A stretch of 36,445 nt of DNA from an uncultured Cryomorphaceae bacterium (GTDB taxonomy: Bacteria > Bacteroidota > Bacteroidia > Flavobacteriales > Schleiferiaceae). Under the pieces are notes generated by a model, which saw nothing but the letters and a program-made list of their open reading frames with translations, did not search any database and was not told the origin of the DNA. Location: assembly GCA_913043005.1 (NCBI GenBank), contig CAJWKU010000018.1, positions 1 through 36,445 on the forward strand. The letters are read 5' to 3'. Positions 22,570-36,445 of this stretch are shown piece after piece. Position 1 is the stretch's first letter. Each line of letters starts with the position of its first letter. A program made the translations under genes and the position numbers.

Positions 22570-23733
22570 ATGTCAAAAAATGATGTTCCCTTTTCTTTTT
22601 GGGAAAAGAACCGATCACTTTTTCAAGGTGATGTAATAATTATAGGCGGCGGTCTTGTTGGTCAATCTGTAGCGATTGCTCTGCAAAAAAAGAGAATTAA
22701 ATCTCATCAAAAGCCATTAAAAATTTGTATCGTAGACAAGCTACCTACAGGAAAATCAGGCGCCAGTACAAGAAATGCTGGATTTGCATGCTTTGGAAGC
22801 CCAACAGAAATTCTTGATGATATGAATCAGGAAACTGAAAATAAAATAGTGGCAAGAATGAAAAATAGAATTGCTGGCATTTCACTCTGGAAAAATTGGG
22901 TGTCTCCTGATATTATAGATTGGGAAGATCATAATGGATATGAAGTATTCGAACCTCAAGAAATAAAATCATATGAGGAGGTTTTGAATCAATTAGATAA
23001 TCTAAATCGTATGGGTAAACTAGCCTCGGGGGAAAAACAAATATATTCGAAAACATCACAGATTTCTACGAACTTACCCTACTCTATCAAAATTAATGGT
23101 GAAGCCAGTCTCAACCCAGGTAAAGCGCACAATGCCTTAGTCGAAATTAATAGATCCTTTGGAACAGTCTTTTTCAATGGAATCCGAATCTCAGGAAGAA
23201 AAAATTGGATAAAAACAAGAAATGGATGGACCATACCGAGTAATCAAGGAGATTTTAAGGCCTCTAAAGTTGTCGTTGCAACAAATGCCTGGACCCCAGA
23301 GTTAATTCCAGGAGTAGACATCACTCCAGGAAGAGGCCAAATAATTTTAATAAAACCATCTCAAACTACTATTTTTAAAGGGGTCTGCCACGCTAAAAAA
23401 GGTTATTTATATTTCCGAAATTTGAATAACTACCTATTGCTTGGTGGGGGAAGAAACCTTTTTCGGCAAGAGGAAACATCTTTAGACATGTGCACAACAG
23501 CTAATGTTCAAACTTATTTGGAATCATACATTAAGGAGGTACTAATTCCAAAGCAAGAATATACCGTTATAAATAGGTGGTCTGGTATTATGGCATTTTC
23601 AAGATCAGGTGAGAAATCCTCGTTAATTTATTGGGAAGAGCCAAACCTATTAATTGCTGCCAGAATGGGAGGAATGGGAGTCGCACTGGCACCAAAGGTC
23701 GGGGAAGATGTTGCTAAAATGATACTTACCTAA
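22570..23733 (+). CDS. FAD-dependent oxidoreductase of the D-amino-acid oxidase (DAO) superfamily
   Basis: A 387-residue flavoprotein. The Rossmann motif for FAD is DVIIIGGGLVGQSVAIAL (about 20-37). The strand ending in an acidic residue (ICIVDK) and SGASTRNAGFACFGSP follow, as in glycine/D-amino-acid oxidases and related dehydrogenases. VVVATNAWTPELIPG, TPGRGQIILIKP, YLYFRNLNNYLLLGGGRN and RWSGIMAFSRSG complete the family pattern, and the C terminus AARMGGMGVALAP closes the FAD site. The substrate is probably an amino acid or N-methyl amine, but the exact one cannot be read off. It is divergent from the Nudix-like regulator across 215 AT-rich bases and ends at a strong terminator. Confidence 0.88.
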   Translation: MSKNDVPFSFWEKNRSLFQGDVIIIGGGLVGQSVAIALQKKRIKSHQKPLKICIVDKLPTGKSGASTRNAGFACFGSPTEILDDMNQETENKIVARMKNRIAGISLWKNWVSPDIIDWEDHNGYEVFEPQEIKSYEEVLNQLDNLNRMGKLASGEKQIYSKTSQISTNLPYSIKINGEASLNPGKAHNALVEINRSFGTVFFNGIRISGRKNWIKTRNGWTIPSNQGDFKASKVVVATNAWTPELIPGVDITPGRGQIILIKPSQTTIFKGVCHAKKGYLYFRNLNNYLLLGGGRNLFRQEETSLDMCTTANVQTYLESYIKEVLIPKQEYTVINRWSGIMAFSRSGEKSSLIYWEEPNLLIAARMGGMGVALAPKVGEDVAKMILT

Positions 23734-23761
23734 ATCAAAGTCCAAAACATCTTAAAAAGAC

Positions 23762-23793
23762 AAGGGCGATAATCGTAATTATCGCCCTTTTTG
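23762..23793. terminator. Strong rho-independent terminator after the DAO-family gene
   Basis: AAGGGCGATAAT-CG-TAATTATCGCCCTT: GGGCGATAAT and ATTATCGCCC pair perfectly over 10 bp (flanking AA/TT extend it) around a 4-base loop CGTA. TTTTTG follows on the plus strand. On the minus strand it is followed by TTGTCTTTTT, so it could also end a transcript coming from the candidate RNA at about 24360-23800. Confidence 0.9.
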
Positions 23794-23799
23794 TTTATC

Positions 23800-24360
23800 C
23801 CGGAAAGCCGGTTTATTCAAAAATCCCGTAGGACCGTCCACCGCAAATAAATTCTCTGATTTCTCAGATACTATTGGTGTCTTTTTCATCACCTGTCATT
23901 TACGATTTTCCTGTTAAACAACCCTGTCCGCATCGGTTCAAAGTCTGGACTTTATTTCAAGCCCCAGTATAACAAGACTCTGTCTATTTGAATTGCTCCA
24001 AACACTGGCTATCCAGTAGAATAATTACTCGTCGAAACCAGTATTTATTCTTTCAAGAGTTCAGAGTGGCGTCCTAAAGACCATACTCTGAGTTTCAAGA
24101 TTTGAGTCTGTACTTTTTTTCAAAAGTATTTGTCATTTCTTGCTGCCGAATTTTACTTTTGGTAGATCTTCTTGCGAAGATTTTCCTAACGTCCACCCGA
24201 GGGCTTCTTTTCAGCAGTTCTCCAATGTTGCTTAAAGCTCCTTCTTTCGAAAAGCAAATTGTGTTTTCTATCTTGCGACTTCGACGACACAAATTACTCA
24301 TTATGAGACACATTTCGATGACCCTTTCGCATCATTGAACCAGATCAAACCGTTGTTTTT
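23800..24360 (-). ncRNA. Candidate long structured non-coding RNA (unassigned family)
   Basis: No credible protein is encoded in this gap: the longest frames are under 80 codons and lack homology I recognise. On the minus strand there are many hairpins. These include TCTGA-GAAA-TCAGA (23855-23868), GGTG/CACC (23876-23893), AAAGT/ACTTT (23940-23953), ACTGG/CCAGT (24004-24017), TCAGAGT/ACTCTGA (24061-24091), CAAAAGTA/TACTTTTG (24121-24161), ATCTTC-GCAA-GAAGAT (24166-24181) and TTGTGT/ACACAA (24259-24292). CGGTTT(+)TTCAA at 23809-23820 pairs with TTGAA and AAACCG at 24335-24352, closing the whole unit. GNRA loops appear only when read on the minus strand, which fixes the orientation. The segment is richer in G+C than its AT-rich upstream flank. 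I tested by eye for the RNase P core (GAGGAAAGTCC, ACAGAA), a tmRNA tag frame, SRP and 6S, and saw none. Ends are approximate. Confidence 0.5.
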
Positions 24361-24665
24361 CTCTGTTTGTGTTCATTGAAAGTAGAAAAAAAAATATCGC
24401 ATCACACCCCTTGTTAATAAGTTTGTTAAAAAGAATAATTTTATATTTAAAATACTCTATTTGAGTATTTTACGAATTAATTTAATTTGATGTTTAAACA
24501 AATAGAGTCACGAATTGACTTTACTAATACTATAAATATTTCGTCAAACTTCCTGAATATTCAATTTTCACATCCAGAAACTATTTTTTTTATCAGAATA
24601 AAATTATTTAGGAGCCGAATAAGCTTTCAAATAAAACAATAATTAAATATCCAGAAAAATTTAAT
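24361..24665. other. AT-rich intergenic segment upstream of the candidate RNA
   Basis: About 305 bases of very AT-rich DNA between the porin stop codon and the candidate RNA. No gene is seen. It contains the 24449-24471 inverted repeat and a partial copy of its arm (CAAATAGAGT at 24499-24508). On the minus strand, TGTG followed about 19 bases later by TACTTTCA (near 24377-24384) is a weak match to a Bacteroidota -33/-7 promoter that would start transcription just before 24360. No clear terminator follows the porin gene. Confidence 0.5.
24449..24471. repeat. 9-bp perfect inverted repeat, possible operator
   Basis: AAAATACTC-N5-GAGTATTTT is a perfect palindrome. There is no T-tract typical of a terminator on either side, and its arms plus spacer have the size of a transcription-factor operator. 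It lies about 100 bases upstream of the candidate minus-strand RNA. A 12-base match to one arm and spacer occurs upstream of the Nudix-like regulator gene. Confidence 0.5.
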
Positions 24666-25871
24666 CTATATCCTGACCTGGAAAATAACCTGAATTTGAT
24701 TTTCTAATAAACCATTTATATCCCTCGTAATGCCGTAATCCAAATGAAATTTGGCATTGTGGCCTCTATGGTAATAGTTAAACCCTAAATTAGTTACCGA
24801 TGTTGCTACAAAAAGACCACCTGAATAAGTATCAAATTCGGGATAAACAATGGAATAATTTGCCGCAAGACTGAAGTTTTTTCGAATCAGAATCTCAGCA
24901 AGCAAATTCCCACCTGTACCCAAAACTAAATAACGGCTGATCTCCTCAGGTAATAAAATATCCGATGGAACTGGTGAGTGCTTGAGACCTGTTAATGAAT
25001 TGGCGGTAGCTTGACCTATCTCAAATAGAATAGAAACACCTCTATACTTCAACAAAGCATCCAAATACCACTTCCGATAATCAGGTAGGTCACGAGAGCC
25101 GTTGGCTCTGTACATAGTAAAATCTCCATGCGACTCTCCAACCGGACCAGAAGCACCATAATTATACGACCCAGCAACACCTATGAGCATTTTTAGTTTT
25201 TTCTCGAAGAGCAAATCAGCTGAAAAATTTGTATTACCCTCGGAGAAATCCCCAAAAGGCGATAAGTCTATGCGAAATGCGTACTTGTAACCGCCGATAT
25301 CTACATCTCTTGAATCGTCACCAAATGAATTTCTTCCGTCCCCAGTGGTTAACGCTAACTTAGGTTGAATCTTTACTTCTCCAATATTAAACTCCGCCTC
25401 AAGCTTCACTCCTATCTCCCGTCCAGTTTCACAAAACCGACTACTAAAAAAACTTCTACTGGTAAATGAAAGTTGATCCTCATAGAATAACATTTCACGA
25501 TTATTTCCAATATTTGGCATTTGCCCAATTGTTAGTTTTATTCTTTCAACAGGCTTATAGGATATCCAGGCATCCATTAAAAGATCATTCCTAGAATAGT
25601 CTGATTGAATAAAAAATTCCAGCTTTTCTCTCAAAGCAAATCCTTGAATCCTTAGAAAAGTCAATTCTGGAGAAAAACGAGTATCTACCTGTTCCGAATT
25701 ATCTATAAATGAAAGTTTTGGCTGTATTGCCCCCCCCAATTGAAATCCATAATTATAATCTCGAGATGCGATTTTCAAGCCCCCACCGAGACCATAATCT
25801 CCCAGACCTTGGGCGTGAGAGACTTCAGCGCATAGAATTATAAATATTGAAAATAAAAGTGATCTTATCAT
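24666..25871 (-). CDS. Outer-membrane porin, phosphate-selective (OprP/OprO-like), paralog 2
   Basis: About 401 residues with a signal peptide (MIRSLLFSIFIILCAEVSHA, cut before QG). An in-frame ATG nine codons upstream (25898) overlaps the M14 gene by 11 bases and could be used instead. The mature protein is a run of amphipathic strands with aromatic ends (LEFFIQSDYSRNDLLMDAWISY, VERIKLTIGQMPN, IKLEAEFNIGE-like segments) and ends in IQVIFQVRI. The pattern GGYKYAFRIDLSP with KYRGVSILFEIGQ is shared with the porin at 27429-28760, so the two are paralogs. It is the last gene of the iadA operon and probably admits small anionic solutes or peptides through the outer membrane. Confidence 0.8.
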   Translation of the reverse strand: MIRSLLFSIFIILCAEVSHAQGLGDYGLGGGLKIASRDYNYGFQLGGAIQPKLSFIDNSEQVDTRFSPELTFLRIQGFALREKLEFFIQSDYSRNDLLMDAWISYKPVERIKLTIGQMPNIGNNREMLFYEDQLSFTSRSFFSSRFCETGREIGVKLEAEFNIGEVKIQPKLALTTGDGRNSFGDDSRDVDIGGYKYAFRIDLSPFGDFSEGNTNFSADLLFEKKLKMLIGVAGSYNYGASGPVGESHGDFTMYRANGSRDLPDYRKWYLDALLKYRGVSILFEIGQATANSLTGLKHSPVPSDILLPEEISRYLVLGTGGNLLAEILIRKNFSLAANYSIVYPEFDTYSGGLFVATSVTNLGFNYYHRGHNAKFHLDYGITRDINGLLENQIQVIFQVRI

Positions 25872-25887
25872 GAAAAATATATTTGTC

Positions 25888-27432
25888 TTAGTATGCATGG
25901 TAACGATAATATTTTAATTTTTTATTTAAACCCGTATGAATTACATCAAAAGCAACATAACTACTAGTGGCCTCAGGCTCAAACAATTCAAATAAATGAG
26001 CTCCGCGAACTTGAGATGTCGGAACATATAATAATTCAAAAGGCTGTTCCTTTTCTAAAAGTCTCAACTCTGAGGTTACTCTTTGACGACGTACTCTAAA
26101 TTCTGGTATACCATCCTGCAGATATTTAGTGATATTATATGAATAAATTCGATTTGGGTCTAAAGTCTCTGAGCTAACTAGCTTATACTTGATTCCTAGA
26201 ACATCGAACTTCGGCTTAATCAAAGGAATAAGCTCTTTTGTTAGCAAATATGCCAAAGGAAACGAACGTGTCTTTATGTTTCTTTGTTCAGATAAGTCTC
26301 TGACTTCAAACTCAAAGCCCTGAACGGATTTCTCTTCCAAATCAATAAAATTCATAATTCTATTTTCAGTCAAGTATGAAGATGAATAAACAACCCTTCG
26401 ATTTGTATCAGTTAGGTGTACTAAAACTTTTCTCATATTATGTTTTGATTGCACTGCTGATTTTAAAAAACTCATCCCAACCTCCTTAACACAGGCCACT
26501 CTCCTTTTAAAAGATGTCCTACCCAAGCCCACACCTCTTATTTCAATTAGCGAACTAACACAGTTACTTAAAGCATACGATGTTGATGATGATCGAGCAC
26601 TTATAGAGCCCTCACGGATACGGATAGTCCCTAGATGCTTTTCGGTGGAGAAATAATTATGATGAGTATATCCTTGTTTGTCAAGGTCAGCTTGGCAGGG
26701 GGTAATAAAAGAATCTTCTATTAACTCTCTTAATTTTTTTGGGACATTGGGATTTGAAGTATGCAAAAACATTACGTCATACATCGATGTGACACCAAAA
26801 TTACCAAAATTGACAAAGTCCCGTCGAAAGGGTCGATATTCATGAAAATCTAGAGCCAATTCTGGATCGAATAAATTAAATGTACTCTTCAAATATTTGG
26901 TTTCCGGAGCACTTATAATTGTATGATCTCGATTCAAGTCCATCCCATTTTTTGCATACCGGTTCTCTTTTTTATAACCATCTGGGTTAGCAACAGGAAT
27001 TATCATCATTTCAAATTCATCTAATAAATCAGAATTATTGAGTAATTCATGTATCAGGAATAAAAGACCCTCAACACTACCCATTTCATTGCCATGCAAA
27101 CCACCTTGAAGCCATACACGTATAGGATTCTTAACAGGGTTTTTACCAACCAACCTAATAGCAGGTATCTCAATCCCTCCCTGGCTTTTGCCAATAAAGG
27201 AAATACTCAGCTGGTTTGGATTTTCTATGGATTTATTCTTTAAAAAACTTAATAATTCTGTAATTGATGTGTATCCCTTTTTTTTTGAAAATCCAGGGGT
27301 AGGGATTTCTATATCTGGATCTGGAAAAAAAATTTGAGTTATTATTTTAGGTTGAATTCCTAACTGCAATACCGAAGAAGAACTGCATAAAACAATTACA
27401 ATAAAAAGTATTGAAGTTTTTATGAATTTCAT
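25888..27432 (-). CDS. Exported M14 zinc carboxypeptidase
   Basis: 514 residues. ATG 27432 (MKFIKTSILFIVIVL...) overlaps the previous stop as ATGA and begins a signal peptide. A start 11 codons upstream is unlikely. The M14 domain is complete: zinc ligands His and Glu in GGLHGNEMGSVEG, the Asn-Arg substrate pair in GMDLNRDH, the third zinc His in ALDFHEYRPF, and a candidate general-base Glu in SLIEIRGVGLGR. A C-terminal region of about 200 residues follows, probably beta-rich. M14 enzymes remove C-terminal amino acids from peptides. Lying between two porin genes and downstream of iadA, it probably trims peptides in the periplasm or at the surface. Confidence 0.88.
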   Translation of the reverse strand: MKFIKTSILFIVIVLCSSSSVLQLGIQPKIITQIFFPDPDIEIPTPGFSKKKGYTSITELLSFLKNKSIENPNQLSISFIGKSQGGIEIPAIRLVGKNPVKNPIRVWLQGGLHGNEMGSVEGLLFLIHELLNNSDLLDEFEMMIIPVANPDGYKKENRYAKNGMDLNRDHTIISAPETKYLKSTFNLFDPELALDFHEYRPFRRDFVNFGNFGVTSMYDVMFLHTSNPNVPKKLRELIEDSFITPCQADLDKQGYTHHNYFSTEKHLGTIRIREGSISARSSSTSYALSNCVSSLIEIRGVGLGRTSFKRRVACVKEVGMSFLKSAVQSKHNMRKVLVHLTDTNRRVVYSSSYLTENRIMNFIDLEEKSVQGFEFEVRDLSEQRNIKTRSFPLAYLLTKELIPLIKPKFDVLGIKYKLVSSETLDPNRIYSYNITKYLQDGIPEFRVRRQRVTSELRLLEKEQPFELLYVPTSQVRGAHLFELFEPEATSSYVAFDVIHTGLNKKLKYYRYHAY

Positions 27433-28760
27433 ATCAAAATACTCGTTATGAACTGAATAAACCATTCAGGACGAGTTAAAACCTCCCCAATAGGTGAGGT
27501 TGCGCCATCTACTGAAAAACGTGTTATCGAACTCTGCATTTTGAAACCATACCAGCGTACAAAGTATTTCGAAAGTCCCAATGTAATCGCTTCCGGACGA
27601 CTATAAAACGTACCATTATGTAAAAAAGAATATTCAGGTGCTTGCAAATAACAGTAGCGTGCATCAAAAGAAACACCGTTTTTTAGGATATAGCCTCCCT
27701 GTATATTGTAACCGTGGCCTACCATCATTCTGTTTTTCACATAGGAATCAACATTTTGAATACCATCTATCAAAAAGCTACTCGACGTAGAACCATCATT
27801 TCGAACGCGGTAACTAATGTCAGAAGGTACAGAAGCATCAGCATATACGTATTCTCCAAGAATAGAAACACCCCGAAATTTAAAGAGGAAATCAGCACCA
27901 AGTTGCCAATAATTTGGTAGGCTCGTTTTAAAATCTTGATCTAAATATAAAATACTCCCTTGAGCTCTTCCCCGACGGCTACTAATTCCTTCATTAAAGC
28001 TTCCTCTTGCCCCAAACACAAGTTTTGGGGTTCTTTCCCTAACTAAGTCAACTTGACGATATTGACCATAGCGAGTAAAGAGACCATTTGGCAAATAGTC
28101 CAAACGAAGACCGTACTTCAATCCCCCGATATCATTTCCCATTGGGACGTCTCCATCTCCAGAGGTTATGGATGTCAGAGCTCGCAAATAGCTTCTTGAA
28201 TTTAATCTGATTGTGCTTTCTGAAAATAGACCAAATTCAAATATTGTATTGAACGCAGATGTTAATTTACTACGATCGACCAGCTGCATAGTACCTGAAT
28301 TCATTGTCATTTCCCGACTATTTACTGGATTCACTTTCTGACCAATAATTATCCTATGGCGTTTGTTAAACCGGTATGTTAAATAAGCATGCAGCAATCT
28401 AGTCGATTGAGAATTATCAACCTCTGGAACGCCACCCAGATCAACTTGTATCCTGTATTGTATTCTAGCAGGTTCGTATTCACCATTAATTCGAAGTCTC
28501 AACCTTCGTAACCTGGCTCTGGTACTATTAGGGTCAGCAATAGAATCTTCATTATACTCAACATCTATACTAGGCTGAATAAGGCCACTTATTTTCATTT
28601 TATAGCCACTCGAGCCAGAGAATGTCCAGCCCTCCCCTAATGTATAATCATTCGCTACCAAGTAATCATCCTCAGTTATTTGAGCATTCATAACCGACGA
28701 TAAAAAAGTAATTACCAATACCCAAATATTTTTAGACGCGATTTTTTTCATTTTTATCAT
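27429..28760 (-). CDS. Outer-membrane porin, phosphate-selective (OprP/OprO-like), paralog 1
   Basis: About 443 residues. I choose ATG 28760 because it overlaps the iadA stop as ATGA; MKKIASKNIW starting at 28751 is the alternative. The signal peptide ends at SSVMNA-QI. The body is beta-barrel-like, with repeated strands such as RIQYRIQVDLGGV, HRIIIGQKVNPVNSREM and GLKYGLRLDYLPNG. It shares motifs (FRGVSIL, GDG near the middle) with the porin at the end of the operon. The OprP/OprO family forms anion-selective trimeric channels. Substrate specificity cannot be told from sequence alone. It sits between iadA and the M14 peptidase gene. Confidence 0.82.
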   Translation of the reverse strand: MIKMKKIASKNIWVLVITFLSSVMNAQITEDDYLVANDYTLGEGWTFSGSSGYKMKISGLIQPSIDVEYNEDSIADPNSTRARLRRLRLRINGEYEPARIQYRIQVDLGGVPEVDNSQSTRLLHAYLTYRFNKRHRIIIGQKVNPVNSREMTMNSGTMQLVDRSKLTSAFNTIFEFGLFSESTIRLNSRSYLRALTSITSGDGDVPMGNDIGGLKYGLRLDYLPNGLFTRYGQYRQVDLVRERTPKLVFGARGSFNEGISSRRGRAQGSILYLDQDFKTSLPNYWQLGADFLFKFRGVSILGEYVYADASVPSDISYRVRNDGSTSSSFLIDGIQNVDSYVKNRMMVGHGYNIQGGYILKNGVSFDARYCYLQAPEYSFLHNGTFYSRPEAITLGLSKYFVRWYGFKMQSSITRFSVDGATSPIGEVLTRPEWFIQFITSILI

Positions 28761-29866
28761 TCTAATGAAATCATTTCTCCCATTGCAATTACATTTTGTA
28801 ATTCCCAAGAATCATTAAAAACACAAAAATCAGCGTCAGCTCCAACCTTTACTCGACCTTTATGATTTAAGCCTAAATTATCTGAAACATTAGATGTAAC
28901 TATGGACAATGAGTCCGAGATAGAAATTGCTTCTGACTTAACTAGACTTTGAAACTCTGATAAATTCGCAGATATCGGAGCGGGCTTGGTACCAATAATA
29001 TTTTGCTTATCATCTTTTAAATCTAAACCGGCATTACCATCTGTTGAGAAAGTGATCCGATCAATAGAAAGATTCTGCTCCAATGCCATAAGGACCGCTC
29101 TATGGGGATCAGTGAATTTTGAGGCCCCAGTAGTTATGTCTATTCTACCTCCCAGCTTACCAAATTCAATTGCCGATTCAAATAATTCCGAAGTACGAGC
29201 AACATGTGTTGGAGAAATTGACTCGATAGGAACTTGGTAATCATTAACCATTTGAAAAAGAGGATCTAACTTACTCGGGGAATTACCTAGATGCACATGT
29301 AAAATACCTTTTTTGCCAGCAAGCATGGAACCAACATATACTTCTCTCCATTTCTTTAAAAGTTCCTGAACTGTTGGAAATGATGATCTAATGTCTGAAA
29401 TAGCTATTTTACAACCCAAGACTTTGTCAATAAAAACCAAATCATCCTGAATAGAATTCATTACATGAATTGGGTCTAGACCATAATACCCAGTATGCAT
29501 ATAACCGGTCATACCTTGGTCGTCAAGACCTTTGACTTTCGCATACAATGATTTTGGACTTCTTGTAACTCCATCTGTACCCAAAAGACCTACAACAGTT
29601 GTTGTGCCTATGGAAAGCAAATCTTTAGCGGTTAACTCATTCGTCATTGAACCAAACCCACGCTTACCACCTGCTCCAAGAACATGAACATGTTGATCAA
29701 TAAATCCTGGAGTAACAATCTGATTATTTAGATCTACAGTTGTATAATTTAATCCGGTAATAGATAAATTTTCCTCTATTGCGATAATAGCTGAACCCGA
29801 AACCAATATATCAGTATTTCCAATTTCTTTTGGGGAATACAATCGAGCATTTTTAAATAAAATCAT
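28757..29866 (-). CDS. iadA: Isoaspartyl (beta-aspartyl) dipeptidase, M38 family
   Basis: A 369-residue cytoplasmic amidohydrolase that splits beta-aspartyl dipeptides, releasing aspartate. These dipeptides arise from isomerised Asp/Asn residues and from cyanophycin breakdown. The binuclear zinc site is complete: His59 and His61 in FIDQHVHV, the carboxylated-lysine position Lys153 in GCKIAISD, His190 or His192 in GILHVHLG, His221 in SPTHVAR, and Asp276 in FSTDGNAG. LLGTDGVTRS (about 94-103) and the HTGYYG Tyr residues match the substrate site of known IadA. Its start overlaps the transporter stop as ATGA, and its stop overlaps the porin start. The coupling suggests one pathway. Confidence 0.93.
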   Translation of the reverse strand: MILFKNARLYSPKEIGNTDILVSGSAIIAIEENLSITGLNYTTVDLNNQIVTPGFIDQHVHVLGAGGKRGFGSMTNELTAKDLLSIGTTTVVGLLGTDGVTRSPKSLYAKVKGLDDQGMTGYMHTGYYGLDPIHVMNSIQDDLVFIDKVLGCKIAISDIRSSFPTVQELLKKWREVYVGSMLAGKKGILHVHLGNSPSKLDPLFQMVNDYQVPIESISPTHVARTSELFESAIEFGKLGGRIDITTGASKFTDPHRAVLMALEQNLSIDRITFSTDGNAGLDLKDDKQNIIGTKPAPISANLSEFQSLVKSEAISISDSLSIVTSNVSDNLGLNHKGRVKVGADADFCVFNDSWELQNVIAMGEMISLE

Positions 29867-31239
29867 AACAACATTATTTGAATTAAAAGCATTAACATCA
29901 AAGCAACTGTTATTGGAATTGCATTTCTTTTTACAATTTCCGAAACTGAAACATCTGCTATAGAAGACGTTGCTAAAATAACCCCACTGATAGGAGAGAC
30001 AGTTCTACCTAGAGAAGCAGCTAAATTCATTGGAAGAATAAGATTAATACTATTTACACCAAACTTAGCAGCAATACTAGGAATTAATGGACCAAAGGAG
30101 AAAAATGCTGCATTTCCACTACCCATAAGAATTGAGGATAAGAAAACCAATAAAGTAAACACAACTAAGACCAAGGAAGACCCCAATCCTAAATACTGAG
30201 CTCCATCAATCATAGCTTGAATAAAACCCAATGATATAAGTCCTTTTGCAAATACACCAGCGGTAATAACCAATGTAACAACTGACACAAAAATATTAGA
30301 CATCCCTTTCCAAAAAACCTTGGAACTATCCATAGCGCTCTTTATAGATTTCTTTTTTAATGAGAAAGCAATCAACGCAATGGTCCATGAGATAATCATC
30401 GCCATGGTGGTATTCAAAATGACAGAAAACTCCGTGTACTCATTGACCATATAGACGGAAACCAATAATATTATGGGTATTATTGGTATCAAAGAAAATA
30501 ATGCTGGAACCCCGTTTTGCTTATCCAAATCATCTAAGGGTATTGCAGGTGAATTTTTAAATATTTTACCTTGCTTGGCATCAAAGTATTTATTGACCAA
30601 ATAATAAGAAATAGCCATCACCAACATCAGTGGCCAAACAGTTGGGATTTGATGTTGAATAAAATAATCAACTATCGGTATGTTAGCAATTGATGAAGCA
30701 CTGGCCGTTATTGCTGAAGCAGGTCCCATTCCAAAGGCTGTGCTCCCAGTAATCACTGATACTGCTGATGCCCTGCTCACTCCCAAACCAACTAAAACTG
30801 GAAAAACTGAAACCATAAAAAGACATGCGCATCCTGCAGCGGAAGGGATACAAACAAAAATTAATTGCATTAGTGGAAGAATTGCAATACATGTCAGCGA
30901 TGGCGAAAGCTTCAACCTTTTTACACCACTCAGCGTCTGTCTCACCAATTCATTTGAAGCACCAATATGATCAGAGTAGGCTACAAATCCACCGATACTC
31001 ATTATCATTAAACCAACACCACTTAACGATTTCGAAAATTGCGATGATACGACAGTCATCACACGGACAAAAGAAAAGTTACTTCCATCATTGAAACCAA
31101 TCAAATAATCATAACCTAAAAAACTTGCTATAGTCAGCATTAACATTCCTGAAAACAATAATACTGCCTGAGCAGGCCAGCCCTTCAAAAGGGTCCAGCA
31201 AACCCCAAACAGGATTAGAAAGACAAGAAAAATACCCAC
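29863..31239 (-). CDS. DcuC-family anaerobic-type C4-dicarboxylate/short-peptide transporter
   Basis: A 458-residue inner-membrane protein with about 12 helices. Its pattern (FLVFLILFGVCWTLLKGWPA near the start, LMSIGGF-like glycine-rich spans, ITGSTAFGMGPASA, LGSGNAAFFSFGPL-like segment near the C terminus, SLGRTVSPISGVILATSS) fits the DcuC branch of the ion-transporter superfamily. DcuC proteins carry aspartate, fumarate or succinate. Here it heads the operon and is coupled by ATGA to iadA, so a role in taking up aspartyl compounds or exporting the aspartate product is plausible. Specificity is inferred, not shown. It begins 5 bases after the lamin-tail lipoprotein gene, so that gene may be co-transcribed. 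Confidence 0.8.
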   Translation of the reverse strand: MGIFLVFLILFGVCWTLLKGWPAQAVLLFSGMLMLTIASFLGYDYLIGFNDGSNFSFVRVMTVVSSQFSKSLSGVGLMIMSIGGFVAYSDHIGASNELVRQTLSGVKRLKLSPSLTCIAILPLMQLIFVCIPSAAGCACLFMVSVFPVLVGLGVSRASAVSVITGSTAFGMGPASAITASASSIANIPIVDYFIQHQIPTVWPLMLVMAISYYLVNKYFDAKQGKIFKNSPAIPLDDLDKQNGVPALFSLIPIIPIILLVSVYMVNEYTEFSVILNTTMAMIISWTIALIAFSLKKKSIKSAMDSSKVFWKGMSNIFVSVVTLVITAGVFAKGLISLGFIQAMIDGAQYLGLGSSLVLVVFTLLVFLSSILMGSGNAAFFSFGPLIPSIAAKFGVNSINLILPMNLAASLGRTVSPISGVILATSSIADVSVSEIVKRNAIPITVALMLMLLIQIMLL

Positions 31240-31244
31240 CTGAA

Positions 31245-32177
31245 TCAGAATAAAGAACCATCACTTTTTGTCCCTGGGGAAAAAAGCAAAGTACTAGCGG
31301 TTGTGTGCTGAACAAGCTCACCTATCAAATCAGGAGAACGCGTGTACGACTCGTTAGGGTTATCAGACAAAGGAGTTATATCAAGTTGAATCATTACACT
31401 ATCCGATGAATTAGTTATTGTCAGCACATCTCCTGAATTATTAAGATTCATCATTCCTGTGGTTGTAGCCGATATTTGTGCACCACCAAATGAACCCGTT
31501 GGTGTTCCCCCGCCAAACAATACATAAACCCCTCCAGCAGGAAGGATTGTTCCACTGGGAAATTCATGGCGCGGTGAATTTGAAGAAAGTGCAGTAGCAT
31601 CATAAACTTTATATCCTGACAAATCAATAGATGCAGATCCAATATTTACCAATTCGATAAATTCATCTTCATTTTGCACATATGTACCATCTCCATTTGC
31701 ATCACCATCTAATCCACTGTTGTAAGGATCATATAATATTTCATTTAAAATTAAGGAAGCTAGGCCTTGACCATCATCATCATCAAGAATAACGGAAACT
31801 GAAGTTTGACCAACATTTACAGCATTTTCTAATTGGAAAAGAACTGTAATATCTTCAGTGCCCTCAATATCTTCATCGTTGATCCCTAGCAAGAAGACAC
31901 TCGCTAGAGTATCTCCCGCTGGGATAACTATTTGTGTGCTACTCACACTGTAATCAACACCCTGCGTTGCAGTTCCCTGAAATTCTAAAAAGGCAGTAAC
32001 ACTAGTAGTAGTTATATCATCTAAGCTTAATTCAAGAAGCACACTATCCCCATTATTTTCTGACAAAGTCAGCTGGCTCACATTTAACTCAGCAGTGGGT
32101 GCGTAAGGGACATCATTGGTTTTACAGCTATTTAAAAAAGAAACAAAAAATAGTACCCATAAAATCTTCTTGACCAT
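31245..32177 (-). CDS. Surface lipoprotein with Calx-beta and lamin-tail domains
   Basis: 310 residues. MVKKILWVLFFVSFLNSC is a signal peptide with lipobox-type Cys18. Residues about 28-135 are a Calx-beta domain (ELNVSQLTLSENNGDSVLLEL, TATQGVDYSVSS, IVIPAGDTLASVFL, INDEDIEGTEDITVLF). Residues about 138-285 are a lamin-tail domain (SLILNEILYDPYN, DEFIELVNIGSASIDLSGYKV, LPAGGVYVLFGG, DVLTITNSSDSVMIQLD). Both are adhesion or calcium-binding modules common in Bacteroidota surface proteins. A DGDANGDGTY loop may bind calcium. It lies between a T9SS-tailed protein gene and the DcuC-like gene on the same strand, with short gaps. Confidence 0.82.
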   Translation of the reverse strand: MVKKILWVLFFVSFLNSCKTNDVPYAPTAELNVSQLTLSENNGDSVLLELSLDDITTTSVTAFLEFQGTATQGVDYSVSSTQIVIPAGDTLASVFLLGINDEDIEGTEDITVLFQLENAVNVGQTSVSVILDDDDGQGLASLILNEILYDPYNSGLDGDANGDGTYVQNEDEFIELVNIGSASIDLSGYKVYDATALSSNSPRHEFPSGTILPAGGVYVLFGGGTPTGSFGGAQISATTTGMMNLNNSGDVLTITNSSDSVMIQLDITPLSDNPNESYTRSPDLIGELVQHTTASTLLFSPGTKSDGSLF

Positions 32178-32199
32178 AATGAAAAGTTAAAAAAATCAA

Positions 32200-34104
32200 T
32201 TAATGATTAACCACAACTTTTTCCTCTGAAACAATTCCGTTAGAAAATAATCTTACAATGTACATTCCATTGGGAATATTCGATGTATTCAAAGAACATT
32301 GTCCGCTAACAATAGTAGAGTTCAAAATCTGTTGACCAGTCGTTGATAAAAGCTCAACAGTAGCTCCTTCATTTGCAAAGTCTATTTTTAACAAATCATT
32401 GACGGGATTAGGACTTATGGAAAACCCAAAGTCATACTTTCTGTCTTCACCAACCCCTACTGTGGAGCAATCGGTATCACAATAATTAAAGCAGAAAGCA
32501 AGAGTGTCTGCTGCTGATCCCACCGTGTGAAAACGATTGGTGAATCCACCTGAAAGTAGAGTACAAGCAGAATCTAGAGCGCTAAATTGCTCTTGACCTG
32601 CCCAGTTATCCGCTATGAACTTATAAAAAATAGGCGTATTCTCATCGATCATTGCTGTGTACTCCCAAATATTATCACCATCAGTATCAGTCATTGGCCA
32701 TGCAGTTGGAGACCAGGCATTAAAAGATCCAGTTAAATATGGCTGAGTAAATGAGGAAGGAGCTTTTGGACTATTCATATCTACCATAAAGTGAACACTT
32801 TGCGGAACTGCTGGAGCCGGACAAACTGTATCTGGCGAACATGTTCCATAGCAGAAACCTAAGGTTGTGTCTTGTGAGAAAACAGGCAAGGTTCTATCAC
32901 TAAAAGCTGCTGGGTCGGCACAGGGAAGACCAGCAATATTCTCTTGAGTTGCCCAATTTGTGCTATTCGCAGGGCTGTTTAAAAATCTAAATTTCCCAAG
33001 ACCATCACCGGAAAGAGTATCTGTTCCTTCCCAAATACCATCTGCGTCAGGATCGGACAAAGCAAGACCGGTAGCGCTTCCATATAAGCCTCCACCTACA
33101 TAGATACCATTGGGTCCGACAGTGATATTCGCGGTATTGACTTTAAAGGTAACTACATGAGTCGCTGCTGCTGCTGGACAAACTGTATTAGGTGAACAAG
33201 TTCCAAAGCAAAACCCTAATGTTGTGTCTTGTGAAAAGGTAGGTAGAATTCTAAAATTGAACATTGCAGGGTTAGCGCAAGGGAGACCTGTAAGGTTCTC
33301 CATGGTTGCCCAGTTACTATTGCTTGCAGGGCTGTTTAAGAAAGTGAAATTTCCTCCAGCAGTTCCATCTAGCGTATCTGTTCCTTCCCATATACCATCT
33401 CCATCAGGATCAGACATGGCAATAGCCTGAGCGACACCGGGCTTACCCAGGTACATACCATTGGCACCAACAGTAATATTTGCGGTGTTGACTCTAAATG
33501 TCACAACATGAAAAGAATTATTAGAGCACTGAGGATATGGGCAGCTAGAGGTTGAAACTGAAGTGTCATTATCCGTGCAGTTTGGGCCTCCATAAATCCA
33601 TCCATTCGGCCATACCATTCCTGATGTATCCTTAAATGCCCACGAATCTGTGTAATCCCAAGATGTTCCTGTACCATCAACATTAACATCTCCAAAAGTT
33701 TCCAATAAAACACTATCCTTAAATAATTCAATAGCATCATCCCCATTTTGAGACATAGAATTATTACCAGGGATAATAACTTCAAAAGAGGAAATACAGG
33801 AACCAAAATATGATGCTAAGGCAAGAGAATCTCTATATAAAAGTATATCATCACCTTGCTGAACAGATATTGAAGGAAAGAAAAATTCCATGCCATCAGT
33901 TCCATTACCATTATTGGCAACACCCACAGAATAACGACTCAAATCCGAAATTGACGAATCCGCTTTAAATTGAAGAGCTTTACCTGCAGTTCCAGTGCCA
34001 TCAAAAAAATCCATGACTCCTTGAATACTCAACTGAGCGAAGGAAGAATATGACATCCCTAGTGAAATAACTATAGCTGTAAAAATTCTTGAATATTTTT
34101 TCAT
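32200..34104 (-). CDS. Secreted repeat protein with T9SS C-terminal sorting domain
   Basis: 634 residues. Signal peptide MKKYSRIFTAIVISLGMSYSSFA. Residues about 25-190 look like a lamin-tail-type domain (MEFFFPSISVQQGDDILLYRD, NGDDAIELFKDS). Three modules follow: 197-315 and 316-432 are close copies (VTFKVNTANITVG, DPDGDGIWEGTDTL, SNWATMENLTGLPC, FSQDTTLGFCFGTCSP), and 434-545 is a diverged relative resembling a starch-binding-like domain (GSFNAWSPTAWPMTDTDGDNIWEY). Residues 553-634 are a type A T9SS tail (FGFSISPNPVNDLLKID, GMYIVRLFSNGIVSEEKVVV). The protein should be exported through the type IX system. Function is probably substrate or carbohydrate binding, with no enzyme motif seen. Confidence 0.85.
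   Translation of the reverse strand: MKKYSRIFTAIVISLGMSYSSFAQLSIQGVMDFFDGTGTAGKALQFKADSSISDLSRYSVGVANNGNGTDGMEFFFPSISVQQGDDILLYRDSLALASYFGSCISSFEVIIPGNNSMSQNGDDAIELFKDSVLLETFGDVNVDGTGTSWDYTDSWAFKDTSGMVWPNGWIYGGPNCTDNDTSVSTSSCPYPQCSNNSFHVVTFRVNTANITVGANGMYLGKPGVAQAIAMSDPDGDGIWEGTDTLDGTAGGNFTFLNSPASNSNWATMENLTGLPCANPAMFNFRILPTFSQDTTLGFCFGTCSPNTVCPAAAATHVVTFKVNTANITVGPNGIYVGGGLYGSATGLALSDPDADGIWEGTDTLSGDGLGKFRFLNSPANSTNWATQENIAGLPCADPAAFSDRTLPVFSQDTTLGFCYGTCSPDTVCPAPAVPQSVHFMVDMNSPKAPSSFTQPYLTGSFNAWSPTAWPMTDTDGDNIWEYTAMIDENTPIFYKFIADNWAGQEQFSALDSACTLLSGGFTNRFHTVGSAADTLAFCFNYCDTDCSTVGVGEDRKYDFGFSISPNPVNDLLKIDFANEGATVELLSTTGQQILNSTIVSGQCSLNTSNIPNGMYIVRLFSNGIVSEEKVVVNH
32808..33510 (-). repeat. Two tandem about 350-bp duplicated modules inside the T9SS protein gene
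   Basis: The coding segments around 33160-33510 and 32808-33156 encode near-identical modules and are also alike as DNA (for example both read TTGTGTCTTGTGA and TATCTGTTCCTTCCCA on the plus strand). The DNA-level likeness suggests a fairly recent duplication or gene conversion. Confidence 0.75.
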
Positions 34105-34123
34105 TTTTATGTTTTTTGAAAGG

Positions 34124-34131
34124 TATTTTTG
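34124..34131 (+). promoter_or_regulatory. Possible -7 element for the alpha/beta-hydrolase gene
   Basis: TATTTTTG matches the Bacteroidota -7 consensus TAnnTTTG, about 62 bases before the ATG. No good -33 TTTG is present at the expected 19-21 bp. A second perfect match, TATATTTG on the minus strand at 34182-34189, could serve the divergent T9SS protein gene. Low confidence. Confidence 0.3.
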
Positions 34132-34192
34132 GGTAACATTAATTCAGTGACTAATATAAAACAATTCTAAATTATTTAGATCAAATATAGAG

Positions 34193-35134
34193 ATGATTAT
34201 TAAGCCATTAAAAAGAAAAATAAGACTGCTGGTGTTTCTACTAATTGTATCTCTAATATTCCCTTCATGTCTCCCCGACACCAACCCTAACCCCATTGAA
34301 GGAAACCCACTAGGTGTTTATGGTAGCGGTTCTTTTTCATTTAATGGTTATGTCAATTTTCAAGATAAACCTGTTAATTGCTACTATTTTATTCCTGAAT
34401 CTGCAACGGATCAAACTCCAATTATGTTTTTAATTCATGGAAATGGTAGAAATGCCCAATCATTATTGGCATCACTAAAAACTAGCGCAGAATCATCAAA
34501 TGTCATTTTAATTGCACCTGAATTAAGCACTCAATATTTTAATTTTAATGCATTCGGTTTGTGCAACGTATTTCAAGATGGAGAAAACGCTTCCGGTTTA
34601 AATGAATATGGTGATTGGAGTTTTAACCTTTTGGATCCGATATTTTATGATTTTAATTCGTTAATTGAATCTAATCAATCAGAATATGACCTTTTTGGTT
34701 TTTCAGCAGGAGCGCAATTTGTTCACAGAATGACTCTTTTAGATTCAACCAGCCATGTGAGAAATTTTATATCTGCCTCTGCAGGCTGGTATACTCTGCC
34801 CGACACGACAATAAATTTCCCTTATGGTTTAAAAAATATTCATGGAAGTCAAACCCAAAGGCAAGAGCAATTATTTCGTTCTTTTTCAAAGAAACATTTT
34901 ATTATCGTTGGCTCTGAAGACAATGATCCAAACTCTTCAGACCTAAGACATACCTTAGAAGCTGATGCCCAGGGATCAAACCGATATGATAGGGCACACT
35001 ATTTTTTAGCACAGGGAACATCTATTTCGGATCAATCTCAAATTCCATTTTCATGGAACCTACAGGTGGTATCACAAGTGGGTCATTCTGGACAAGGAAT
35101 GGGTTCCTATGCTATTAATATGCTATATCCATAA
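34193..35134 (+). CDS. Alpha/beta-hydrolase lipoprotein
   Basis: 313 residues. KRKIRLLVFLLIVSLIFPSC is a signal peptide with lipobox-type Cys26, so the enzyme is predicted to be anchored in the envelope. The alpha/beta-hydrolase features are the oxyanion loop in FLIHGNGRNA (about 80-89), nucleophile Ser171 in FGFSAGAQ, a candidate Asp242 in IVGSEDNDP and His297 in VGHSGQGM, in the right order. It resembles the poly(hydroxyalkanoate)-depolymerase or feruloyl-esterase-like group of secreted esterases, but the substrate is not assignable. It is divergent from the T9SS protein gene and followed by another secreted protein gene on the same strand. Confidence 0.8.
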   Translation: MIIKPLKRKIRLLVFLLIVSLIFPSCLPDTNPNPIEGNPLGVYGSGSFSFNGYVNFQDKPVNCYYFIPESATDQTPIMFLIHGNGRNAQSLLASLKTSAESSNVILIAPELSTQYFNFNAFGLCNVFQDGENASGLNEYGDWSFNLLDPIFYDFNSLIESNQSEYDLFGFSAGAQFVHRMTLLDSTSHVRNFISASAGWYTLPDTTINFPYGLKNIHGSQTQRQEQLFRSFSKKHFIIVGSEDNDPNSSDLRHTLEADAQGSNRYDRAHYFLAQGTSISDQSQIPFSWNLQVVSQVGHSGQGMGSYAINMLYP

Positions 35135-35232
35135 ACCCCAAACTTTACGATTGCCCAATACACAGAAATAAATATCCTTAACTTGCAACATTACCTTGAC
35201 TTTGAGCGTAAAAAATATAGCTATTCAAGTTT

Positions 35233-36336
35233 ATGGATATTAGAAAAAATATTTTTACTTTAATTTGTGCTTGCATCTCTGTAATGAGCTTTGGTCAATG
35301 CCAATACATCTTGACAATGTATGATACGGGCGGAGACGGTTGGAATGGCAACTCTATGACCATACAAACCAGTGGATACCCTGCCACAACGGGCTTAACT
35401 GTCGCTTCTGGGTTGGGGCAAAGTTATCTATTAACCATAACACCAGGGGATACATTAAATTTTAATTGGCAGGGAGGTGGCTCTAAACAAAGTGAATGCT
35501 ATTACACTTTGGAAGAATACCCTTCCTATAATTTGCTTTACACATCTCCCACAGGGGACCAAATGTCAATAAACACTCCAGAGTTTGAAGTCTTTTGCTG
35601 TAATGCTGTCAATAACTTAAGCTTCAGCTACACCAATTCTGGAAGTCAGTTCTCTTTTATTGCCTCTCAAAATGGTGCATCAAGTTATTATCGATGGGAC
35701 TTTGGAGATGGTAATTTTGGTTCTGGAACAATGGTTTCGCATACCTACACTTCCTCAGGCACCTTTGATGTAAGTCTGGAATCTTTAAATAATTGTGGGG
35801 ATACATTGAATATAACCATACCTATTATTTTCTGCCTTGATTCGATTCTTGCCAATTGGACTGCAACATTAATTTCTTCGGGTCCCTTGGGTATGAAGAT
35901 TGAATTCAATGCCAATGTTTCACTTGGAGCCTCGTCCTACAAATGGTTTTTTGGAGATGGTGATTCTGGCGTTGGAAAAGTCGTTACGCATATTTATGAC
36001 ACTCCTGGATTATTTTACAATGTGACATTAATTACCTCAAATAACTGTGCTGGCTCAGCTAGCATCACAAAATCCTTAACAACAATCGGAACCATAGAAA
36101 AAGAAATTTTACCATTAAAAATTTGGCCAACAACTCTCATGCCAGGCCAAAAAATATACTTTACAAACAATAACTCCGCAGAGCCAAGAAATAGAATTAA
36201 AATTTTCGACTCCAATGGAAGGTTAATGAATGGTCATAATATTTCTGATGGAATTGAAATTCCGTATCATTGGCCCATTGGAAGTTATATATTATCGATT
36301 AATCATCATATTTATAAGTTCATCTTAACGCAATAA
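35233..36336 (+). CDS. Secreted PKD-domain protein, possible T9SS cargo
   Basis: 367 residues. The signal peptide NIFTLICACISVMSFG is followed by a GDGWNG-type beta module (YDTGGDGWNGNSMTIQ, about 30-120). Two PKD domains come next: about 130-200 (YYRWDFGDGNFGSGTMVSHT) and about 210-290 (YKWFFGDGDSGVGKVVTHIY), each with the signature W-F-G-D-G. The last 70 or so residues (LPLKIWPTTLMPGQKIYF, RIKIFDSNGRLM, YILSINHHIYKFILTQ) resemble a T9SS C-terminal sorting domain, though diverged. PKD modules usually support protein or polysaccharide contact at the cell surface. No catalytic domain is present. Confidence 0.8.
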   Translation: MDIRKNIFTLICACISVMSFGQCQYILTMYDTGGDGWNGNSMTIQTSGYPATTGLTVASGLGQSYLLTITPGDTLNFNWQGGGSKQSECYYTLEEYPSYNLLYTSPTGDQMSINTPEFEVFCCNAVNNLSFSYTNSGSQFSFIASQNGASSYYRWDFGDGNFGSGTMVSHTYTSSGTFDVSLESLNNCGDTLNITIPIIFCLDSILANWTATLISSGPLGMKIEFNANVSLGASSYKWFFGDGDSGVGKVVTHIYDTPGLFYNVTLITSNNCAGSASITKSLTTIGTIEKEILPLKIWPTTLMPGQKIYFTNNNSAEPRNRIKIFDSNGRLMNGHNISDGIEIPYHWPIGSYILSINHHIYKFILTQ

Positions 36337-36375: not shown

Positions 36376-36396
36376 AATGATCAAAGAAGAATATTG

Positions 36397-36445
36397 TCGG
36401 GATGACAGGACTTGAACCTGCGACCACACGACCCCCAGCCGTGTA
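36397..36445 (-). tRNA. tRNA-Pro (anticodon GGG), 5' part cut off
   Basis: The 3' half of a tRNA on the minus strand, running off the window end. Visible are the anticodon stem-loop CACGG-CTGGGGG-TCGTG (anticodon GGG), T arm GCAGG-TTCAAGT-CCTGT, and acceptor end CATCCCG with discriminator A. CCA is not encoded. The D arm and 5' acceptor lie beyond base 36445. Confidence 0.9.

Follow-up and report, generated by a model that had tools for sequence, protein, structure and literature searches.

To our knowledge, few bacterial noncoding RNAs of the size and complexity considered here are known. The closest described systems are GOLLD, ROOL and OLE, all three recently shown to be RNA-only homo-oligomers (PMC12286853). 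The same paper portrays GOLLD as large (many over 800 nt) and ornate, with a conserved 3' region and a less conserved 5' region, often near tRNA genes and with a marine example (PMC12286853). GOLLD is encoded by phages or prophages, often near tRNA islands. ROOL is another large ornate RNA of unknown function, and its 5' and 3' regions are described as intertwined and co-evolving (PMC12286853). OLE RNA is described as an RNA of ~600 nt confined to a restricted clade, with no established precise biochemical function; its hosts are Gram-positive extremophiles and anaerobes. The smtA motif ("Soda Lake RNA") is a structured RNA of over 350 nt and unknown role, described from Thioalkalivibrio only (PMC11109978).

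The locus described here lies in a window (the whole stretch of DNA analysed, 36,445 nt) that constitutes an entire contig (G000:C18) of a genome of 1.67 Mb. Its element shares with GOLLD a large and ornate structure, a conserved 3' part, a less conserved 5' part, a nearby tRNA gene and a marine occurrence, but it has no covariance-model match to GOLLD, is mostly smaller and is a single chromosomal gene with conserved synteny through its genus; it adjoins one tRNA-Pro in two of its lineages (groups B and C below), and no phage or plasmid copy was found. It is large and ornate like ROOL, although its 5' part changes faster and no model match was obtained, and like OLE it measures around 600 nt and is restricted to one clade, again without a model match and in other hosts. 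The smtA motif is comparable as a large genus-restricted structured RNA and differs in its recorded length and in its restriction to Thioalkalivibrio. RNase P RNA class A and tmRNA are similar in size and complexity but differ in that both occur elsewhere in element-bearing relatives. GOLLD is the nearest in habit, and by model score the putative RNA is not a member. On its predicted features (several hundred nucleotides, many covarying helices, no shared open reading frame [ORF], promoter and terminator signals of its own), the element fits the descriptive class of large ornate stand-alone RNAs, and within that known bacterial class it is best read as a new family.

Extent of the element

An earlier note on this DNA had singled out positions 23800 to 24360 as the only long coding-free gap and proposed that they encode a structured RNA of about 550 nt on the minus strand. 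The gap is indeed exceptional: from 23733 to 24666 it measures 932 nt, the longest between main ORFs of the window, compared with 251 nt for the next longest. It contains two ORFs of 72 and 78 amino acids (aa), neither of which is common to the lineages when 19 homologous sequences are compared. The landmarks of the locus are as follows.

22570 to 23733, plus strand: ORF for an FAD-dependent oxidoreductase (DAO; PF01266), convergent with the RNA gene
23755 to 24384, minus strand: whole element, spanning the -7 box through the T-run of the terminator, aligned with its counterparts in G012, G010, G016 and G014
24377 to 24384, minus strand: -7-like promoter box TACTTTCA; a TAnnTT box opens all 19 full-length homologues
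24412 to 24421, minus strand: upstream box CTTATTAACA of consensus STTWTNMACM, which resembles a DnaA box and precedes the -7 box by 27 nt
24666 to 25898, minus strand: ORF without a Pfam or NCBIfam match

The element was found by nhmmer, synteny and covariance models. The minus-strand RNA proposed at the outset held up, while its boundaries did not: the element is longer, extending from the promoter box at 24384-24377 to the terminator at 23789-23755. The predicted transcript would run from about 24371 to 23756 on the minus strand, a length of ~615 nt.

Distribution within the genus

The element was detected in 21 of the 22 genomes of the genus that were analysed (Flavobacteriales), with two copies cut by contig ends. 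A DNA search of 100 relatives matched six genomes, namely the source genome (G000), four of the same genus and one with a 38-nt match taken as chance. Nucleotide identity to the window's element is 98% in G012, 90% in G010 and 75% in both G016 and G014, where the adjacent oxidoreductase protein is 60 and 59% identical, respectively, to that of the window. An nhmmer search of oxidoreductase loci revealed the element in seven further genomes of the genus, plus a contig-end fragment in an eighth. A covariance model of the 3' end (R1), built from 12 sequences, matched 12 of 88 family genomes, the same 12 genomes from which it was built. A second model (R2), built from 19 sequences, recovered 20 of the 22 genomes of the genus with scores between 126.9 and 183 bits, a result that for 19 of them follows from their use in building the model. 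The 21st genome, G021, retains the last 58 nt of the RNA at a contig end (46.4 bits); in G008, the element was not found, and neither the POT transporter nor tRNA-Pro was seen.

Outside the genus, the best R2 score in 66 other family genomes was 23.4 bits, for the terminator hairpin only, and weak matches spanning the model reached 20.3 bits and were taken as chance. Among 395 genomes of the order, four weak matches outside the genus were likewise taken as chance: those in G046 and G127 cover only the terminator hairpin, that in G255 (30.4 bits) is largely contained in an ORF of 71 aa, and that in G077 (27 bits) falls in a ~260-nt gap holding a terminator-like hairpin. The initial suggestion that the RNA is perhaps family-specific narrows to genus-specific with the models used; this absence elsewhere is bounded by the models, since R1 missed all of group C. 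A search of genome contigs with the terminator-hairpin pattern gave 11 records, each carrying one of the names Flavobacteriales, Cryomorphaceae, Schleiferiaceae or Owenweeksia sp. TMED14; the named records with the element include "Owenweeksia sp. TMED14" and "Cryomorphaceae bacterium BACL7."

The homologues fall into four diverged lineages, listed here with the length from promoter box to terminator in the 19 complete sequences.

Group A: G000, G012, G010, G016 and G014; 625 to 631 nt
Group B: G009, G013, G006, G003, G015 and G004, plus the cut G021; 666 to 681 nt
Single lineage: G018; 834 nt
Group C: G001 (cut by a contig end, with the 3' part left), G002, G005, G007, G011, G017, G019 and G020; 560 to 569 nt

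Identity within the 3' domain is 54 to 64% between groups A and B, 53 to 62% between G018 and either of these, and 39 to 55% between group C and the others.

Covariation and predicted fold

Homology, synteny and covariation support a structured RNA. Covarying helices, a check that the earlier note had set, were counted in structures predicted from the same alignments, with shuffles and slid partners as controls, of which only the latter preserve sequence relatedness. In the 3' domain, the 32 named pairs are formed in 96.3% of cells over 19 sequences, compared with 81.0% (standard deviation, 0.9) after shuffling and 40.6 to 51.1% with slid partners; two-sided changes are seen at 22 of the 32 pairs (13.0 shuffled, 3 to 6 slid), and the covariation score is 0.543 (0.241 shuffled, 0.087 to 0.144 slid). 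In seven full-length sequences of group C, for which 28 helices with 178 pairs are predicted, 91.5% of cells are paired, compared with 79.9% shuffled and 34.6 to 41.9% slid, and 86 of the 178 pairs show two-sided change, compared with 45.2 and 17 to 27. A covarying-stem scan that assumed no fold returned 14 stems in group C, 6 in groups A and B and 3 in the joint 3' domain, recovering helices of the same fold. In these three sets, the scan found no covarying pseudoknot compatible with the fold; two four-pair candidates in group C clash with supported helices and were taken as chance, and the remaining stems fit a nested fold. RNAalifold gave just 76 confident pairs on the joint alignment of groups A and B, probably because the middle of that alignment is misaligned, and no pair count was made on it.

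The features of the predicted fold, in the order of the RNA, are as follows.

24308 to 24372, minus strand: 5' domain, with a helix ACACA/UGUGU around CAGA/UCUG and inner hairpin AAAC-AACG-GUUU, and with the hairpin UGAUGC-GAAA-GGGUCA
24257 to 24295, minus strand: long hairpin AAUUUGUGU...ACACAAUU
24166 to 24181, minus strand: hairpin AUCUUC-GCAA-GAAGAU, with 6 of 6 pairs in the window and 5 of 6 in each of four group-A relatives
24111 to 24128, minus strand: hairpin UACUUUU-GAAA-AAAAGUA, replaced by UCUCU-GCAA-GGAGA in G016 and G014, the stem being changed on both sides
24004 to 24051, minus strand: two hairpins, AGAAUAA...UUAUUCU and ACUGG-AUAG-CCAGU
23946 to 23965, minus strand: helix PA with loop core UUGRRAYARA, the start of the conserved 3' domain
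23842 to 23904, minus strand: branched hairpin of the A/B type, CGUAAAU...AUUUGCG around GGUG...CACC and CUGA-GAAA-UCAG
23755 to 23840, minus strand: 3' junction, with closing helix GAC/GUC, hairpins GUCC-UACG-GGAU and CCGG-CUUU-CCGG, and the terminator hairpin with its T-run

Within the 3' domain, the terminator helix is paired in 100% of cells over the 19 sequences, helix PA in 94.0% (with two-sided change at 5 of its 7 pairs) and the outer, closing helix of the junction in 94.7%, reading AGAC/GUCU, AAGC/GCUU or AAAC/GUUU depending on the lineage. Upstream of it, the 5' domain is drawn from the alignment of groups A and B (A4), with covarying stems judged by eye and uncounted; the ACUGG-AUAG-CCAGU hairpin was recovered with two-sided changes in the scan of these groups. 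The internal loop UCGUCGAA of the long hairpin (24287-24280, minus strand) is complementary over eight bases to UUCGACGA (24036-24029), a possible kissing contact between two loops; the pairing is kept in all five group-A sequences (one U-G), a comparison of little power in which chance is not excluded.

The abundance of local hairpins first noticed by eye is borne out by folding: the minus strand of 23760-24400 folds at -181.1 kcal/mol with a z score of -6.3 (20 shuffles), and the plus strand at -152.7 kcal/mol with a z score of -4.3 (20 shuffles). All three GNRA hairpins that had been pointed out (loops at 24172-24175, 24118-24121 and 23860-23863) are present and recur in the four closest relatives, the first loop reading ACAA in G010 and the third GUAA in G016 and G014. 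Group A has two more recurrent GNRA hairpins, close to 24244 and to 23997, and hairpins similar to AUCUUC-GCAA-GAAGAU were seen by eye in group B. The 11-bp long-range helix that the earlier note had drawn between the two ends did not survive comparison: the five group-A sequences keep 11, 11, 9, 9 and 9 of the 11 pairs with zero two-sided changes, and the six group-B sequences keep 3 or 4 of 8 pairs, with gaps at the other 3. Its arms fall in the local hairpins AAAC-AACG-GUUU (24358-24347) and CCGG-CUUU-CCGG (23811-23800).

Strand, promoter and terminator

For the exact element of the window, the strands are inseparable by z score (-4.9 sense and -5.1 antisense; 30 shuffles each). Across the window and seven relatives, all 8 sequences fold more stably on the sense strand, and 7 of the 8 have the stronger z score there, the exception by z score being the window's own sequence; sense z scores range from -4.4 to -8.0 (30 shuffles each). 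Three conserved G-U pairs, at alignment columns 7-14 (U-G in 15 of 19 sequences), 198-209 (U-G in 13 of 19) and 190-217 (G-U in 10 of 19), would turn into A-C mismatches on the opposite strand, which favours the sense strand. Judged from these pairs together with the promoter-like and terminator signals, the putative RNA is on the window's minus strand.

The -7-like box TACTTTCA (TAnnTT..) begins 12 nt ahead of the base that opens helix 1. RNase P RNA and tmRNA of the genus, read by eye, have in the corresponding upstream position TACCTTTG (12 of 15 loci), TACATTTG (two loci) or TACATTTA (one locus); the box of the RNA gene deviates from TACCTTTG. Only 8 of 19 sequences have an exact TTG placed 19 nt ahead of the -7 box. 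The best site for STTWTNMACM lies 26 or 27 nt before the box with no mismatch in 15 of 19 sequences and with one mismatch in G020; in G000, G012 and G010, the script favoured a site 12 nt further up, and CTTATTAACA (CTTGTTAACA in G010) is also found at 27 nt. Shuffled upstream regions matched the box score in 0 to 4 of 500 cases for 17 sequences, in 15 for G020 and in 34 for G010. The composite STTWTNMACM-N26/27-TAnnTTYR (24421-24377, minus strand, in the window) has 13 matches in 199,141 bases (the window and 28 loci, some overlapping), all at this RNA gene and, with two genes seen twice, representing 11 genes. The pattern was fitted to these promoters, so only its absence from the rest of the 199,141 bases examined is informative; the stricter pattern missed G010, G007 and G005, though their promoters were among the searched loci. 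The DnaA box has the consensus TTATNCACA, and the upstream box equals it exactly in G002 and G019. We treat this resemblance as a lead only.

At its 3' end, the element has a 12-bp terminator hairpin (23789-23762) followed by the T-run. A terminator-like hairpin was also seen by eye between tRNA-Pro and the RNA in all seven group-C loci reaching that far.

A probable stand-alone RNA gene

We regard it as practically certain that the gap encodes a real structured RNA, and an RNA gene that stands alone, rather than a cis-acting element, is very probable. Conserved position, strong covariation, promoter and terminator signals, the lack of a shared ORF and the lack of an Rfam match all uphold the stand-alone structured RNA first suggested. 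The best explanation of the whole, which we consider somewhat better than an even bet, is a large stand-alone structured noncoding RNA with its own promoter and terminator that serves as a trans-acting structural RNA. Most likely, the gene would be transcribed from its own promoter carrying a specific upstream site, and the transcript would stop at its own intrinsic terminator. The RNA itself would be the product, with a length of ~615 nt here and between roughly 550 and 820 nt in relatives, and would fold into a conserved 3' domain (the UUGRRAYARA-loop helix and the terminator-enclosing junction) and a faster-changing 5' part with GNRA-capped hairpins. It would most likely act in trans as a structural RNA, either as a protein-bound particle or as an RNA homo-oligomer like GOLLD, ROOL and OLE. 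We infer transcription, trans action and particle formation, the trans-acting structural role being deduced from size, neighbour independence and fold. Confidence is highest for a structured RNA and declines through a gene of its own and a trans-acting structural role to a particle or oligomer, for which, by analogy, the chance falls a little short of even.

That nearly every one of these small genomes carries the element suggests a function of importance to the genus. A bolder version, which we think unlikely, makes it an undescribed class of self-assembling RNA particle or RNP core, arisen or captured in the ancestor of the genus, with a DnaA-box-type switch site and the status of a single-copy, near-universal housekeeping RNA; if true, this would be a housekeeping RNA comparable in scale to RNase P and peculiar to one lineage. 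Short of that, the element adds a large-RNA family without a detectable relationship to GOLLD, ROOL or OLE, with covariation enough to fix much of the fold, a defined gene, a distinctive promoter and a one-genus boundary with the models used, and it exemplifies a genus-specific RNA that small genomes carry almost without exception.

Synteny and possible mobile origin

In groups B and C, the RNA gene occupies a slot with trxB/tRNA-Pro(ggg) on one side and the oxidoreductase and/or an NrtR-like gene plus a POT transporter on the other; the 3' neighbours in group A are the same. A conserved position, proposed earlier as a check, was thus found. The gene beyond tRNA-Pro is thioredoxin reductase by NCBIfam in the two genomes tested, G002 and G019. 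In G000, the interval from the RNA to tRNA-Pro (24666-36336, annotated over 24666-31239) encodes an M14 peptidase, a Porin_O_P protein, a beta-aspartyl-peptidase and DcuC, and the corresponding interval in groups B and C is a short spacer; the distance is some 11 to 12 kb in G000 and G010. The window contig ends inside tRNA-Pro(ggg), at 36395-36445.

Among the alternatives, the one that survives best concerns origin: a GOLLD- or ROOL-like RNA could have been brought into the ancestor of the genus, 3' of tRNA-Pro(ggg), by a mobile element or prophage and later have been kept chromosomally. The RNA does lie just downstream of this tRNA in five group-B and seven group-C loci. tRNA-Pro(ggg) is beside thioredoxin reductase also in genus g3 (G049 and G041 tested), and both signature patterns of the RNA are absent from the gaps after the tRNA in 19 loci of g3, g5 and g6 (one of which ends at the tRNA), so that the RNA gene appears to be new in, or kept only by, this genus. 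R2 and Rfam searches of two ~500- to 600-nt gaps beside tRNA-Pro (G043 and G100) returned only the tRNA. Searches of RNA families and of phage and plasmid records weigh the other way. Rfam 15, in which we take GOLLD, ROOL and OLE to be included, gave no match at gathering score in the window element or in the element at nine loci of groups A and B and G018, and at five group-C loci gave only RNase P RNA and tRNA; the scan first proposed was thus negative for all four lineages. Permissive scans (E values up to 10) of the window element and three homologues yielded only weak unrelated matches and no GOLLD, ROOL or OLE. The strongest subthreshold hit in the window region, to MicX (E = 0.013), falls on the terminator hairpin, as do several others. 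There was no match in 50,697 phage records for queries from groups A, B and C or in 72,556 plasmid records for queries from groups B and C, and the sole viral contig retrieved, with two terminator patterns, overlaps ORFs and scores 8.5 bits, a chance match. On balance, we hold a mobile origin to be improbable, though the least improbable of the alternatives. A literature search combining Schleiferiaceae with noncoding RNA found nothing.

Oxidoreductase neighbour and enzymatic RNAs

The neighbourhood also raises the possibility of a base-pairing regulatory RNA, or of an element serving the convergent FAD-oxidoreductase gene as antisense or terminator. Both RNA and oxidoreductase were found in 12 genomes by the initial searches, and the same hairpin is terminator-like on both strands, so it may also end the oxidoreductase transcript. 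The apparent partnership arose because nhmmer and R1 were too narrow: the oxidoreductase gene is present in 13 of the 22 genus genomes and was not detected in 9, and the diverged RNA was then read in the same slot in eight of those nine. Group-C genomes have the POT transporter, and the oxidoreductase gene was not found in them. More than 550 nt of covarying structure, moreover, far exceeds what an antisense RNA or terminator needs, and we consider this explanation quite unlikely.

A large ribozyme or RNP enzyme RNA, analogous to RNase P, is about equally doubtful. Size, complexity and strongly conserved loops speak for it; on the other side, no Rfam ribozyme family reached threshold in the element, and RNase P RNA and tmRNA are separate genes in relatives. 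The earlier note had judged by eye that the cores of RNase P RNA, tmRNA, 6S RNA and SRP RNA are lacking, and the model searches agree: RF00010 (RNase P RNA class A) gave no match in the element, nor did RF00023 or ARAGORN for tmRNA, and there was no Rfam match to 6S or SRP RNA in the element of the window or the relatives' loci. RNase P RNA was found in 52 of 60 relatives and tmRNA above cutoff in 50 of 60, and neither was found above cutoff in G000. The idea from this double absence, that the element replaces one of them, is ruled out by G010, G012, G014 and G016, which carry the element, a separate RNase P RNA and a separate tmRNA; for the same reason, the element is not a diverged form of either. 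On its contig in G010, tRNA-Pro is followed ~3 kb further on by RNase P RNA; as the window contig ends in that tRNA, the RNase P gene of G000 is probably just off the contig.

With the stand-alone structured RNA as the favoured reading, coding potential can be treated briefly. The longest ORF per sequence spans 39 to 121 codons on the sense strand, with scattered starts, and 60 to 142 codons antisense (19 sequences); in group A, the longest antisense ORF starts 338 to 347 nt from its 5' end in 5 of 5 sequences, with 67 to 95 codons, and is absent as a shared frame from groups B and C. A decayed protein gene or a set of chance hairpins, to which short ORFs on both strands and the antisense ORFs of 130 to 142 codons in 5 of 19 sequences might point, is refuted, unless the alignments are wrong, by the covariation and by the absence of a reading frame common to the lineages across the 19 sequences, and we give it almost no credence. 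In G007 (L104, just after position 5156), a short tandem-looking repeat, GGGGTAAGCATAAAAA, occurs twice after the RNA terminator.
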